Shown in pieces: positions 23,726-30,047 of a DNA stretch of 64,000 bases. The notes beneath the pieces are model-generated. The model was not told where the DNA came from. It made no database searches and saw only the letters and a program-made list of their open reading frames with translations. The position numbers were made by a program, and so were the translations under genes. The stretch is from positions 1 through 64,000 of the forward strand of contig NZ_JAUXOD010000137.1 in NCBI RefSeq assembly GCF_030682515.1, read 5' to 3'. This stretch comes from Hoeflea sp. GTDB lineage: Bacteria > Pseudomonadota > Alphaproteobacteria > Rhizobiales > Rhizobiaceae. Position 1 is the first letter of the stretch. Every line of letters starts with the position of its first letter.

Positions 23726-25096
23726 ATGACCAGCCCTGCCCTGCCCCAAGGATTGATCCGCGCCGTGGACACCACGGGCACGATGCCGGGCTACATGCCC
23801 GGCTTCGGCAATGATTTCGAGACCGAGGCGCTGCCCGGCGCGCTGCCGCAGGGCCGGAACTCGCCGCAAAAATGCAATTACGGGCTCTACGGCGAACAGC
23901 TCTCCGGCACAGCCTTCACTGCACCCAGCCACCAGAACGAGCGGACCTGGTGCTACCGCATCCGCCCCTCGGTCAAGCATTCCGGCCGCTACGAGAAGAT
24001 CGCGCTGCCCTACTGGAAGTCGGCGCCCAATGTCGATCCCGACGTCATTTCGCTCGGCCAGTACCGCTGGGATCCGGTCCCCCATTCCGACGCACCGCTC
24101 ACCTGGCTCACCGGCATGCGCACCATGACGACGGCGGGCGACGTCAACACCCAGGTCGGCATGGCGAGCCACATCTATCTGGTCACGAAATCTATGGTGG
24201 ACGCGTATTTCTATTCCGCCGACAGCGAGCTGCTGATCGTGCCCCAGGAAGGCCGGCTGCGTTTCTGCACCGAGCTCGGCGTGATCGATCTGGAACCCAG
24301 CGAGATCGCCATCATCCCGCGCGGTCTGGTCTACCGGGTCGAACTCCTCGACGGTCCGGCGCGCGGCTTTGTCTGCGAGAATTACGGCCAGAAGTTCGAA
24401 TTGCCCGGGCGCGGGCCGATCGGCGCCAACTGCATGGCCAACCGCCGCGATTTCAAGACGCCGGTCGCGGCCTACGAGGACCGCGAGGTCCCCTCGGTCC
24501 TCACCATCAAGTGGTGCGGTCAGTTCCATGAGACCCGCATCGGCCATTCACCGCTCGACGTCGTCGCCTGGCACGGCAATTACGCGCCGGTCAAATACGA
24601 CATGCGCAATTACTGCCCGATCGGGGCGATCCTGTTCGACCATCCCGATCCGTCGATCTTCACCGTGCTCACCGCCCCTTCCGGCGTCCCCGGCACCGCC
24701 AACATCGATTTCGTGCTGTTCCGCGAGCGCTGGATGACCATGGAGAACACCTTCCGCCCGCCCTGGTATCACAAGAACATCATGTCCGAGCTGATGGGCA
24801 ACATCTATGGCGAATACGACGCCAAGCCGCAGGGCTTTATCCCGGGCGGGATCAGCCTGCACAACATGATGCTGCCGCACGGGCCCGACAACGAGGCCTT
24901 CGAGAAGGCCACCCACAGCGAGCTCAAGCCGCACAAGCTCGACAACACCATGTCCTTCATGTTCGAAACCCGGTTCCCGCAGCATTTGACCGCCTTCGCC
25001 GCCAACGAAGCGCCGCTGCAGGATGACTATATCGAATGCTGGGACAGTCTGGAGAAGCATTTCGACGGAACCATCGAAGGCAACTGGGGCAAGTAG
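23726..25096 (+). CDS. hmgA: Homogentisate 1,2-dioxygenase
   Basis: The 456-residue protein begins with the family hallmark [20 protein letters not shown] and continues with [30 protein letters not shown]-like ([10 protein letters not shown]), and the iron-ligand region with [20 protein letters not shown] near residue 343 and [18 protein letters not shown] near residue 377. It cleaves homogentisate to maleylacetoacetate with Fe2+ and O2 in tyrosine and phenylalanine catabolism. Start ATG 23726 is preceded by AGAGGAGACC. It heads an operon with a metallo-beta-lactamase-fold protein and an FAD monooxygenase; maleylacetoacetate isomerase and fumarylacetoacetase are not in the window. Confidence 0.97.
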
Positions 25097-25238: not shown

Positions 25239-26189
25239 ATGGCCAAGGCATTCGCGTCGCAAGGCGACATGGCAGACAAGAAGATCAGCTTCACGAAGAT
25301 CGGCGAAGGCCTCTACGCCTTCACCGCCGAGGGCGACCCGAACACCGGCGTCATCATCGGCGACGACAGCGTCATGATCGTCGAGGCGCAGGCGACGCCA
25401 CGGCTCGCGCGCAAGGTGATCGACTGCGTCCGCTCGGTCACCGACAAGCCGATCAGCCATGTGGTGCTGACCCATTACCATGCCGTGCGCGTGCTCGGCG
25501 CCTCGGCCTATGGCGCGCGCGAGATCATCATGTCCGACACCGCGGCCGCCATGGTCGAGGAGCGCGGACAGGAGGACTGGGACAGCGAATTCGGCCGCTT
25601 CCCGCGCCTGTTCCAGGGCCATGAGGAAATCCCGGGCCTGACCCGCCCGACCACCACCTTCTCGGACCAGATGACGGTCTATCTCGGCAAGCGCCGCGTC
25701 GACATCATGAAGCTCGGACGCGCCCACACCGCCGGCGACGCGGTCATCTGGGTTCCGGATGAAGAGGTGATGTTCACCGGCGACATCGTCGAATACCATT
25801 CCGCCTGCTATTGCGGCGACGGCCATTTTGCCGACTGGCCCGAAACGCTGGCCAACATCGCCGCCTTCGAGCCCAAAAGCATCGCGCCCGGACGCGGCGA
25901 CGCGCTGGTGGGCGAGGAGATGGTGGCGAGAGCGCTGGCCGCCACCGCCGATTTCGTCGAGAGCACGTACCGCCCGGTGGCGCGGATCGTGGCGCGCGGC
26001 GGCACACTCAAGGAAGCCTGGGACGCCGTGCGCGCCGCCTGCGATCCAAAATTCGCCGACTACGCCATCTACGAGCACTGCCTGCCCTTCAACGTTGCCC
26101 GCGCCTATGACGAGGCCCGCGGCATCGACACGCCCCGGATCTGGACCGCCGAGCGCGACAAGGCCATGTGGGAGGCCCTTCAGGGCTGA
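25239..26189 (+). CDS. Metallo-beta-lactamase-fold protein with an altered metal site
   Basis: The 316-residue protein has the MBL fold pattern: GLYAFTAEGDPNTGVIIGDD, VVLTHYHAVRVLGASAYG near residue 82, GRAHTAGDAVIWVP near residue 160 and MFTGDIVEYHSACY near residue 178. The usual HxHxDH motif reads HYHAVR, so the aspartate and last histidine that bind the second metal are replaced by Val and Arg, and the C-terminal PGHG reads PGRG. The first-site histidines and the bridging aspartate of TGD remain. It may therefore bind one metal only. Start ATG 25239 follows GAGGAACACC. Being between hmgA and an FAD monooxygenase, it probably acts in aromatic ring catabolism. Confidence 0.85.
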   Translation: MAKAFASQGDMADKKISFTKIGEGLYAFTAEGDPNTGVIIGDDSVMIVEAQATPRLARKVIDCVRSVTDKPISHVVLTHYHAVRVLGASAYGAREIIMSDTAAAMVEERGQEDWDSEFGRFPRLFQGHEEIPGLTRPTTTFSDQMTVYLGKRRVDIMKLGRAHTAGDAVIWVPDEEVMFTGDIVEYHSACYCGDGHFADWPETLANIAAFEPKSIAPGRGDALVGEEMVARALAATADFVESTYRPVARIVARGGTLKEAWDAVRAACDPKFADYAIYEHCLPFNVARAYDEARGIDTPRIWTAERDKAMWEALQG

Positions 26190-26220
26190 CCGGAAACAGT
26201 CCCCTGGGAGGAGGACATAT

Positions 26221-27846
26221 ATGCTGCAGGATCGCTACTCGCTGGCCTTCAGGCTCTACCCCTATCAGCGCGCCGCCGATCAGGACGCGCCCGCCCCCGT
26301 CCGCCATCAGGTGGTGGTGGGCGGCGCGGGGCCGATCGGCTTGGCCATGGCGCTCGATCTCGGCCGCCAGGGCATTCCCGTGCTGGTTCTCGACGACCAC
26401 GAGGGGATCGGCCAGGGCAGCCGCGCCATCTGCTTTTCCAAGCGGTCGCTCGAGATCGCCGACCGCTATGGCTGCGGCGACGCCATGCTCGAGAAGGGCG
26501 TCATCTGGAACGTGGGCAAGGTCTTCCACGACGACCGGCAGGTGTTCGAATTCAATCTGCTGCCCGAAGAGGGCCACAAATACCCGGCCTTCATCAACCT
26601 CCAGCAGCCCTATTTCGAGCGCTTCCTCTACGAGCAGATCGAGGCCGAGCGCGCCCGTGGCGCGCCGATCGAGATCCGCGGCAGAAACCGCATCGATGCG
26701 GTCGAGGACAGGGGCGATCACGTCGAACTGAGCGTGATGACGTCGGACGGCCCCTATGCGCTTGAAGCCCAATGGCTGATCGCCTGCGACGGCGCCAATT
26801 CGCCGATCCGCGGCATGCTTGGCCTCGACTTCGAAGGCCGCGTGTTCCAGGACAGCTTTCTGATTGCCGACATCAGGATGACATCGGCGAGTTTTCCGAC
26901 CGAACGCTGGTTCTGGTTCGAACCCTGGTTCAAGTCAGGGGCTTCGACGCTGCTGCACAAGCAGCCCGACGACATCTGGCGCGTGGATTTCCAGATCGGC
27001 TGGGATGTCGACCGCAAGGAGGAGATGAAGCCCGAGAACATCCGCCGCCGGCTCGACGCCATGCTCGGCGCGGACGTGGAGTACGACATCGTCTGGTCCT
27101 CGATCTACACTTTCCAGTGCCGGCGCATGCGCAAGTTCCACCATGGGCGGGTGGTCTTCGCCGGCGATTCGGCGCACCAGGTCTCCCCCTTCGGCGCGCG
27201 CGGCGCCAATTCCGGCATGCAGGACGTCGACAATCTCGGCTGGAAGCTCGGCCTGGTGATCAGGGGCGAGGCTCCCGAAACGCTGATCGACAGCTACAAC
27301 GAGGAGCGGATCCACGGCGCCGACGAGAACATCCTCAACTCGACGCGCGCAACCGACTTCATCACACCCAAGTCGAAGATCAGCCACATTTTCCGCAACG
27401 CGGTGCTCGATCTCGCCGAGACCCTCCCCTTCGCCCGCAGCCTCGTCAATTCGGGCCGCCTGTCGGTGCCCTGCACCTATGACGGGCTATGCCTCAACGG
27501 CCCGGACGAGCTTCCCGGCGGCCCCGCCCGCACACGCACCGGCAGCGCCTGCCCCGATGTCCCGCTGGAGGACGGCTTTCTCCTCAACCGCCTGGGCACC
27601 GGCTTCATGATCCTGACCATCGACGCCGACGCGCCCGACAGCATTGAGGAAGACGGGATCACCGCCCTCCGCCTCCCGCTTGCCCTAAAGGATGACCCGA
27701 CCGGCGCGCTCACGGACCGCTATCTCGGCAGTTCGCGGTCCGCCGTCTACCTCATCCGGCCCGACCAGCATGTCGCCGCGCGCTGGCAGCGATATGATGA
27801 GGGCGCCCTGCGCAAGGCCCTGCGCACAGCCTGCGGAAAGGACTGA
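26221..27846 (+). CDS. FAD-dependent aromatic monooxygenase (MhpA/PheA-TfdB-like)
   Basis: The start ATG 26221 follows GGGAGGAGGACATAT, an excellent ribosome binding site, and gives 541 residues; the longer track ORF overlaps the upstream gene and is wrong. Residues 30-60 hold the FAD dinucleotide motif VVVGGAGPIGLAMALDL, then a DGANSPIR segment near residue 195 and the second FAD motif VVFAGDSAHQVSPFGARGAN near residue 312. The C-terminus (from about 430) forms the thioredoxin-like domain of phenol-hydroxylase-type flavoproteins. It should hydroxylate an aromatic ring using NAD(P)H and O2. Its place after hmgA suggests it makes homogentisate or a related hydroquinone from an unknown phenol. 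Confidence 0.88.
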   Translation: MLQDRYSLAFRLYPYQRAADQDAPAPVRHQVVVGGAGPIGLAMALDLGRQGIPVLVLDDHEGIGQGSRAICFSKRSLEIADRYGCGDAMLEKGVIWNVGKVFHDDRQVFEFNLLPEEGHKYPAFINLQQPYFERFLYEQIEAERARGAPIEIRGRNRIDAVEDRGDHVELSVMTSDGPYALEAQWLIACDGANSPIRGMLGLDFEGRVFQDSFLIADIRMTSASFPTERWFWFEPWFKSGASTLLHKQPDDIWRVDFQIGWDVDRKEEMKPENIRRRLDAMLGADVEYDIVWSSIYTFQCRRMRKFHHGRVVFAGDSAHQVSPFGARGANSGMQDVDNLGWKLGLVIRGEAPETLIDSYNEERIHGADENILNSTRATDFITPKSKISHIFRNAVLDLAETLPFARSLVNSGRLSVPCTYDGLCLNGPDELPGGPARTRTGSACPDVPLEDGFLLNRLGTGFMILTIDADAPDSIEEDGITALRLPLALKDDPTGALTDRYLGSSRSAVYLIRPDQHVAARWQRYDEGALRKALRTACGKD

Positions 27847-27849
27847 ACC

Positions 27850-28047
27850 ATGGCCAAGCTCCTGACCTCGCTCAACATCGCCGCCCCGGACGAATTCTAC
27901 GAGCGGCTGATCCGCGCCCATGAGGGCCTGTCAGAGGAGGAAAGCGCTTCCTTCAACGCCCGGCTGATCCTGATCCTCGCCAATCACGTCGGCGACGCAG
28001 AGGTGTTGGCCGAGGCGTTGCAGACCGCCCGCAAGCCCGCGCCCTGA
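27850..28047 (+). CDS. DUF2783 domain-containing small protein
   Basis: This 65-residue acidic protein starts three bases after the monooxygenase stop, so it is surely cotranscribed. Its sequence (LNIAAPDEFYERLIRAHEGL, then SFNARLILILANHVGD) is the DUF2783 pattern, a family of 60-70 residues found almost only beside this type of FAD monooxygenase in Alpha- and Betaproteobacteria. It is helical and soluble without a signal peptide. An accessory or stabilising role for the monooxygenase is a reasonable guess but no function is known. Confidence 0.85.
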   Translation: MAKLLTSLNIAAPDEFYERLIRAHEGLSEEESASFNARLILILANHVGDAEVLAEALQTARKPAP

Positions 28048-28950: not shown

Positions 28951-29520
28951 ATGCCCACGATGGACAACGCGAAAATTCTGATCATGTCGACCCACGGCTT
29001 TGAACAGTCAGAACTCGAATACCCGCTCGAGCACCTCAAGAAGGCGGGCGCCACCGTTCACGTGGCCACGCCCGACGGCAAGCCGATCAGGGGCTGGGAC
29101 GAGAAGGACTGGGGCAAGTCGGTCGACGCCGACCTCAAGATTTCCGAGGTCAAGGTCGATGAGTACAACGCGCTGGTGCTGCCCGGCGGCCAGATCAACC
29201 CCGATGTGCTGCGCGTTGAGGAAAACGCCATCCAACTGGTTCGCAATTTCGTGTCGAGCGGCAAGATCGTGGCGGCTATCTGCCACGCACCATGGCTGTT
29301 GATTGAAGCCGGCGTCATCAAGGGACGTGAGGCGACCTCGTATCATTCGATCCGCACGGACATGGAAAATGCCGGCGCCAAATGGATCGACGCCGAGATC
29401 GCCATCGACAACGGCATCATCACCAGCCGTTCGCCCAAGGATCTGAAGGCCTTTGTCGCCAAGATCATCGAGGAAGTGCGTGAAGGCGACCATCAACGCA
29501 AGTCATTGAGCGCCGCCTGA
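28951..29520 (+). CDS. DJ-1/PfpI family protein (general stress protein 18 type)
   Basis: The 189-residue protein shows the PfpI signature: ILIMSTHGFEQSELEYPLE at the start with the acidic residue at Glu, VLPGGQINPDVLR in the middle and AAICHAPWLLIEAG near residue 111, where the Cys-His pair forms the nucleophile elbow. Members such as YhbO and YajL-type proteins act in protection from oxidative and carbonyl stress, as glyoxalases or deglycases according to some reports. The start ATG follows AAAGGAGCTGATCC. A perfect EcfG promoter lies 37 bp upstream, which supports a stress role. Confidence 0.93.
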   Translation: MPTMDNAKILIMSTHGFEQSELEYPLEHLKKAGATVHVATPDGKPIRGWDEKDWGKSVDADLKISEVKVDEYNALVLPGGQINPDVLRVEENAIQLVRNFVSSGKIVAAICHAPWLLIEAGVIKGREATSYHSIRTDMENAGAKWIDAEIAIDNGIITSRSPKDLKAFVAKIIEEVREGDHQRKSLSAA

Positions 29521-29636: not shown

Positions 29637-30047
29637 ATGTCAAACCAATCTGTTGCGCACAAAACACTCATCGTCGTCGGCACCGGAGAAGGCGCCAAAT
29701 TCTACCGGAATTCCGCCAAGGGCGGCGAGCTCAAGCTGCAGCACGAGCATGACCTCGAGCCCGGCGATCTGGCTGATGAGGGTCCGGCGGGCAAGCAGCC
29801 CGCCGACACATCGCCGAAGGAATCGATGGAAGCGACCTTCGCGAAGATCCTCGCCCATCACCTCTACGACCTCGCCCAGGCGCACAAGTTCGACGACCTC
29901 ATCCTCGTGCTTGATCCCGATACGCTCGGCGAAACCCGGCCAAGCCTGCATGTGAGCGTGACCGACAAGATCCGGCTGGAACTGCCCAAGACACTGACCA
30001 ACAGCAAGATCGAGGATATCGAGCGCTCGATCTTGGCCGCGATGTAA
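29637..30047 (+). CDS. Host attachment protein-like (baeRF12-type) protein
   Basis: This 136-residue soluble protein starts with TLIVVGTGEGAKFYRNSAKG and contains ATFAKILAHHLYDLAQAHKFD followed by LVLDPDTLGETRP and ends with ELPKTLTNSKIEDIERSI. This is the pattern of the family named for proteins needed for host attachment in Agrobacterium, now grouped with the bacterial archaeo-eukaryotic release factor (baeRF) families. The name rests on one phenotype; a ribosome-rescue or stress role is as likely. It follows the PfpI gene by 116 bp and may belong to the same stress region. A hairpin (30061-30085) closes its transcript. Confidence 0.82.
   Translation: MSNQSVAHKTLIVVGTGEGAKFYRNSAKGGELKLQHEHDLEPGDLADEGPAGKQPADTSPKESMEATFAKILAHHLYDLAQAHKFDDLILVLDPDTLGETRPSLHVSVTDKIRLELPKTLTNSKIEDIERSILAAM

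Follow-up and report, generated by a model that had tools for sequence, protein, structure and literature searches.

The question raised by this locus is what a metallo-beta-lactamase (MBL)-fold protein without a complete metal site does beside the gene for homogentisate 1,2-dioxygenase. The window, i.e., the whole stretch of 64,000 nucleotides from a Hoeflea sp. contig that was analysed, carries hmgA, the MBL gene, a gene for an FAD-dependent aromatic hydroxylase that starts 31 bases on, and a gene for a small DUF2783 protein 3 bases further (Table 1). An earlier note on this DNA had read HYHAVR in place of the HxHxDH motif, and PGRG in place of PGHG, in an MBL-fold protein, and the open reading frame, its Pfam match, and the motif residues themselves bear this out.

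Table 1. Coordinates of the module genes and of the diagnostic residues of the MBL-fold protein (window numbering).
Feature	Position	Strand	Remarks
hmgA, homogentisate 1,2-dioxygenase, 5' of the MBL gene	23726..25096	+	Would receive the product; non-obligate partner
MBL-fold protein with half-lost metal site, orthologue of 8d2z	25239..26189	+	316-aa ORF, Pfam, phmmer, model
HYHAVR motif, residues 79-84	25473..25490	+	H79 and H81 kept; V83 and R84 replace metal-2 ligands D120 and H121
H163, third metal-1 histidine (H196 in MBL numbering)	25725..25727	+	Invariant; within AHTAGD
D182, bridging acid (position 221)	25782..25784	+	Kept in 32/33 representatives; within GD181-182
PGRG motif, residues 217-220	25887..25898	+	R219 replaces metal-2 ligand H263; invariant in this orthologue family
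H280-C281 conserved pair	26076..26081	+	Present in this orthologue family, absent from outgroup MBL proteins
MhaA-like FAD-dependent aromatic hydroxylase, 541 aa	26221..27846	+	FAD_binding_3; NCBIfam NF006002; functional partner
DUF2783 protein, 65 aa, candidate MhaB-type coupling protein	27850..28047	+	Functional partner

The fold of the 316-aa product is that of an MBL protein by three measures: it matches Pfam Lactamase_B (PF00753, E=1.7e-10), its AlphaFold2 model has a pLDDT of 93.7, and a PDB fold search with that model returned 539 chains at E<=0.001, the best 50 of which are all MBL-fold. The nearest of them is 8d2z, a "metallo-beta-lactamase superfamily protein" of Burkholderia cenocepacia whose crystal structure was released in 2023 (phmmer E=5e-112, 54% identity, rmsd 1.3 Å to the AlphaFold2 model). 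It also has both HYHAVR and PGRG, and belongs to the same orthologue group as the window protein. The 8d2z entry gives no function, and a literature search with 8d2z, HYHAVR, and DUF2783 found none for this MBL family, for 8d2z, or for DUF2783. Among the matches listed, the closest fold after 8d2z is the chlorothalonil hydrolytic dehalogenase 6uxu (TM 0.74-0.77), although it shares only 22% identity over the fold and has no known link to the homogentisate pathway; mono-zinc B2 lactamases are also among the best fold matches listed after these two. It is worth noting that one orthologue, in Sphingobium sp. TomMM15 (L175:9001-9960), carries the annotation "ampC", which misleadingly suggests antibiotic resistance.

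In standard MBL numbering, the metal-2 ligands D120, H121, and H263 are replaced by V83, R84, and R219, while the three histidines H116, H118, and H196 are still in place, as is the bridging acid (position 221). The three substitutions counted in the earlier note are therefore real, although they do not weigh equally: the B1 enzyme BcII already has an arginine at position 121 (an "Arg121Cys mutant" of BcII is among the PDB matches listed), so the residues that set the protein apart from all MBL subclasses are V120 and R263 only. Subclass B2 (CphA, Sfh-I) shares the fold and offers a precedent for a single metal. B2 enzymes keep D120, C221, and H263 and lose H116, whereas the present family keeps H116, H118, and H196 and loses D120 and H263; B2 thus retains the complementary half-site, and the family is not B2. 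Consistent with this, the B2 signature N116/D120/C221/H263 is absent from the window protein (H79, V83, D182, R219), which reaches 64.5 bits with the B2 model against a cut-off of 240. Other assignments failed as well. Subclass B1 is rejected by cut-off or motif; the SoxH-related quinoprotein relay metallohydrolases (TIGR04558/TIGR04559) give 82.6 and 104.2 bits against cut-offs of 300 and 280; and an ETHE1-type persulfide dioxygenase is rejected since the motif is HYHAVR, not HxHxDH, and no ETHE1 match appeared in the Pfam, curated-model, or PDB searches.

Is the altered site a peculiarity of this copy? Of the 178 loci that we fetched, 164 carry an orthologue (46-100% identity); the products of the other 14 are more distant MBL proteins, which served as the nearest outgroup. 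HYHAVR is present in 163 of the 164 orthologues, and PGRG or GGRG in all 164, whereas all 14 outgroup proteins have HxHxDH and PGHG and so retain the D, H, and H of a complete metal-2 site that the family lacks. After dereplication of the orthologues at 82% identity, the metal-site signature residues, including the metal-1 histidines H79, H81, and H163 and the bridging D182, are kept in 32-33 of the 33 representatives, and R84, R109, R120, R123, R219, R288, and H280 are invariant or nearly so in the orthologues. In the tree, the orthologues form one clade, set apart by a branch whose support is 100/98, a pattern compatible with a metal-site change that arose once and was then fixed. The loss of two or three ligands is what a degenerate, functionless copy would show; nevertheless, no fewer than 43 genera, whose sequences diverge by about 50%, share these substitutions as fixed changes, so this explanation was rejected and we give it practically no chance of being right. 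The alignment thus upholds the earlier proposal that the loss is conserved, the homologues not having restored the ligands. A changed mechanism, single-metal or non-hydrolytic, is the natural reading of such a loss, and the half-site that remains would probably bind one metal.

The neighbourhood of the gene points to the partners of the protein. Among the 108 loci with enough flanking sequence (near relatives included), the hydroxylase gene lies on the same strand as the MBL gene in 90, the DUF2783 gene in 88, and hmgA in 68; hmgA is found nearby on either strand in 72. In two loci of one family (L198, L199) the order is hydroxylase, MBL gene, and then directly DUF2783, and in some genomes the MBL gene is unlinked to the hydroxylase. 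In the window, the operon is followed downstream by genes for a DJ-1/PfpI protein (28951-29520) and a baeRF family 12/Host_attach protein (29637-30047).

Co-occurrence across genomes is stricter than linkage. We surveyed 399 Pseudomonadota genomes with cut-offs of E<=1e-90 for the MBL orthologue and E<=1e-60 for the hydroxylase, and found the MBL protein in 61, DUF2783 in 60, and the MhaA-like hydroxylase in 60, with all three in the same 60 genomes, which span 43 genera (Fisher p=5e-71, a value that ignores relatedness). In three of the 60 (G019, G338, G366), the hydroxylase beside DUF2783 is a diverged form with 36-38% identity. Not one of the 399 genomes has the hydroxylase or DUF2783 without the MBL protein. 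A single genome (G139, locus L122) has the MBL protein without the two partners, and in its copy H79 is changed to N and D182 to A, a ligand loss that is expected, as far as a single case goes, if the partnership is what holds the site. An extra sample of Gammaproteobacteria added nine DUF2783 genomes over the cut-off, eight of them with the MBL protein; the exception is an assembly that is only 58% complete. Because the three proteins co-occur in this way, we regard the MBL protein as very probably an obligate partner of the MhaA-like hydroxylase. A paralogous hydroxylase subfamily (35-39% identity) was also observed in five loci (L192, L193, L194, L195, L207), several of which have a weak DUF2783-like match and no nearby MBL gene; this subfamily may catalyse a reaction that needs no third component.

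The association with hmgA is looser, and it is here that the earlier note fares least well. It had tied the protein to homogentisate ring cleavage, with maleylacetoacetate or fumarylacetoacetate as candidate substrates. In a sample of 200 genomes, 44 have HmgA, and 26 of these 44 lack an MBL orthologue, nine of the 26 being Rhizobiaceae, the family of the window genome; conversely, HmgA is missing from 8 of the 17 module-bearing genomes that were checked for it, most of which carry the module apart from hmgA. A role in ring cleavage was rejected, since the protein is missing from most hmgA genomes and HmgA from about half of the module genomes tested, while the hydroxylase and DUF2783 accompany the MBL protein in 60 of 60.

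A VOC (glyoxalase)-fold protein adjoins the hydroxylase-DUF2783 module in a number of loci (L210:8257-8811; L174:10077-10622; L142:12996-13523; L141:9430-9966; L129:6266-6796; L200-L203), is also found beside the module in the HmgA-free genomes G246, G204, G327, G019, G366, and G231, and adjoins fumarylacetoacetase in several loci. A close relative is PDB 9u42, "Glyoxalase". This protein is a candidate for a non-orthologous homogentisate ring-cleaving dioxygenase.

The window genome itself encodes HppD (G000:C41:7219-8241) and, on contig C94, a fah-type hydrolase and MaiA that complete the downstream path. Tyrosine can thus reach homogentisate without the module, and the three genes probably serve another substrate in this genome. 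The genome combines HppD with the hydroxylase module (25239-28047); the two routes to homogentisate have been described as never reported together in one organism (PMC9338888). On contig C94, the fah-type hydrolase and maiA genes are directly preceded by a gene for a canonical MBL protein with HLHSDH (L214, 409-1137).

Two described hydroxylase systems bear on what that substrate may be. The relative of the hydroxylase pair that has been studied best is MhaAB of Pseudomonas putida U, described as a 3-hydroxyphenylacetate 6-hydroxylase of two components for which 4-hydroxyphenylacetate (4-HPA) is no substrate (PMC10983741; PMC3053370). In Burkholderia xenovorans LB400, a pair named MhaAB, from 47% and 35% identity with the P. 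putida U proteins, adjoins hmgABC (PMC3053370). The neighbours of the MBL gene, an FAD_binding_3 flavoprotein of 541 aa and a 65-aa protein, are a pair of the MhaAB type, which likewise consists of a large FAD hydroxylase and a protein of about 60 aa in a homogentisate cluster. The gene order in loci L124 and L126 agrees with the LB400 arrangement, with the MBL gene placed first. By contrast with the present module, MhaAB is described as two-component and specific for 3-hydroxyphenylacetate, and an MBL protein does not figure in the descriptions cited.

The second system is 4-HPA 1-hydroxylase, an FAD- and Mg2+-dependent activity that forms homogentisate and whose last step is an NIH shift moving the acetic group (PMC9338888). 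In Delftia acidovorans, the flavoprotein HpaH is reported to yield an unidentified metabolite "Z", which HpaC, a "1,4-dihydroxyphenylacetate mutase" termed "a peptide", turns into homogentisate; hpaH plus hpaC clones of Ruegeria pomeroyi and H. olivaria showed no activity, and in the authors' view another gene might be involved (PMC9338888). A three-gene module would explain that inactivity. Like the module, the Delftia system combines a flavoprotein with a second protein, which in Delftia leads to homogentisate, and both Ruegeria and Halomonas, the sources of the clones, have module-bearing loci. The two differ in that two genes are described for Delftia rather than three, and the MBL protein is likened to HpaC by description, not by sequence; the reported hpaC could correspond to DUF2783 rather than to the MBL protein. 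Conversion of 4-HPA to homogentisate is known from some species of Halomonas (PMC8058095), and in Halomonas sp. PA16-9 the gene order is MBL-hydroxylase-DUF2783-hmgA-fah-maiA. In locus L142, the module lies beside genes for both TTQ amine dehydrogenase chains and MauE, and for an aldehyde dehydrogenase and a ThDP decarboxylase; with these neighbours, tyramine or 4-hydroxyphenylpyruvate would be turned into a hydroxyphenylacetate. Such a context speaks for the para substrate, whose conversion to homogentisate calls for a rearrangement. We also considered whether the protein might be the bacterial equivalent of HmgX, a fungal accessory protein for HppD, and rejected this, as HmgX is reported to be without conserved domains and to have homologues among Ascomycota.

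We propose that the MBL protein is a third component that acts with the MhaA-like hydroxylase and DUF2783 in feeding a hydroxyphenylacetate into homogentisate. The hydroxylase and DUF2783 would hydroxylate 4-hydroxyphenylacetate, the putative substrate, at the ring carbon to which the side chain is attached (C1), giving a non-aromatic quinol. The MBL protein would then bind the carboxylate of this quinol through its family-specific arginines, with one metal on H79, H81, and H163 acting as a Lewis acid, and would shift the carboxymethyl group to the next carbon (an NIH shift), whereupon the ring would re-aromatize to homogentisate. That the protein is the single-metal mutase of this "HpaC" step, and so the rearrangement enzyme, is a proposition that we hold with about even confidence, given that an NIH shift can also proceed without an enzyme, and that the P. 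putida U MhaAB reaction, which needs no rearrangement, counts against it.

That same reaction underlies the most serious competing explanation, which takes the hydroxylase for a 3-hydroxyphenylacetate 6-hydroxylase (MhaAB) and the MBL protein for an accessory hydrolase, for example one that opens homogentisate lactone or releases the substrate from an ester or thioester. The naming of the B. xenovorans pair beside hmgABC speaks for it, as do the facts that MBL-fold proteins are usually hydrolases and that mono-metal MBL hydrolases such as CphA exist. We nevertheless consider it unlikely, because the protein strictly co-occurs with the hydroxylase and its small partner and not with HmgA, which points to the hydroxylation step, and because P. 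putida U MhaAB, by its description, needs no MBL protein to be complete (PMC3053370). Co-occurrence of this kind is also what a protein complex would give, and with half of the metal site gone, the protein might have no catalytic role and instead bind the hydroxylase or the coupling protein as a scaffold or regulator, with a metal site that is now structural. For such a role, the invariance or near-invariance of the three histidines, the bridging acid, and many residues of pocket type (R84, R109, R120, R123, R219, R288, and H280) appears excessive, and the gene is unlinked to the hydroxylase in some genomes; we therefore consider it improbable.

The three-histidine site might also serve an oxygenase-like function with mononuclear iron, or a redox function, such as the handling of hydroxylase by-products (peroxide, benzoquinone acetate). 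The MBL-fold mono-iron dioxygenase ETHE1 sets a precedent, and flavin hydroxylases leak reactive oxygen, as has been discussed for MhaA (PMC10983741). Our searches gave no relation to ETHE1, and a role of this kind would not demand strict co-occurrence with one type of hydroxylase, leaving it very improbable. We therefore retain the proposed mutase as the working explanation for the conserved half-site and the obligate three-gene partnership.

Overall, the family may represent a two-metal MBL hydrolase turned into a single-metal carboxymethyl mutase, within a three-part enzyme of which one part was left out of the two-gene clones, a view of its origin that we put forward tentatively. Its current annotation, "MBL fold metallo-hydrolase" and once "ampC", is likely wrong. 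If the proposal is true, a large fold that is chiefly associated with hydrolysis would here carry out an unusual reaction, the rearrangement of a carbon skeleton, and the module would supply the gene set for 4-hydroxyphenylacetate 1-hydroxylase. That activity was described in 1975, and the two-gene clones reported for it were inactive.
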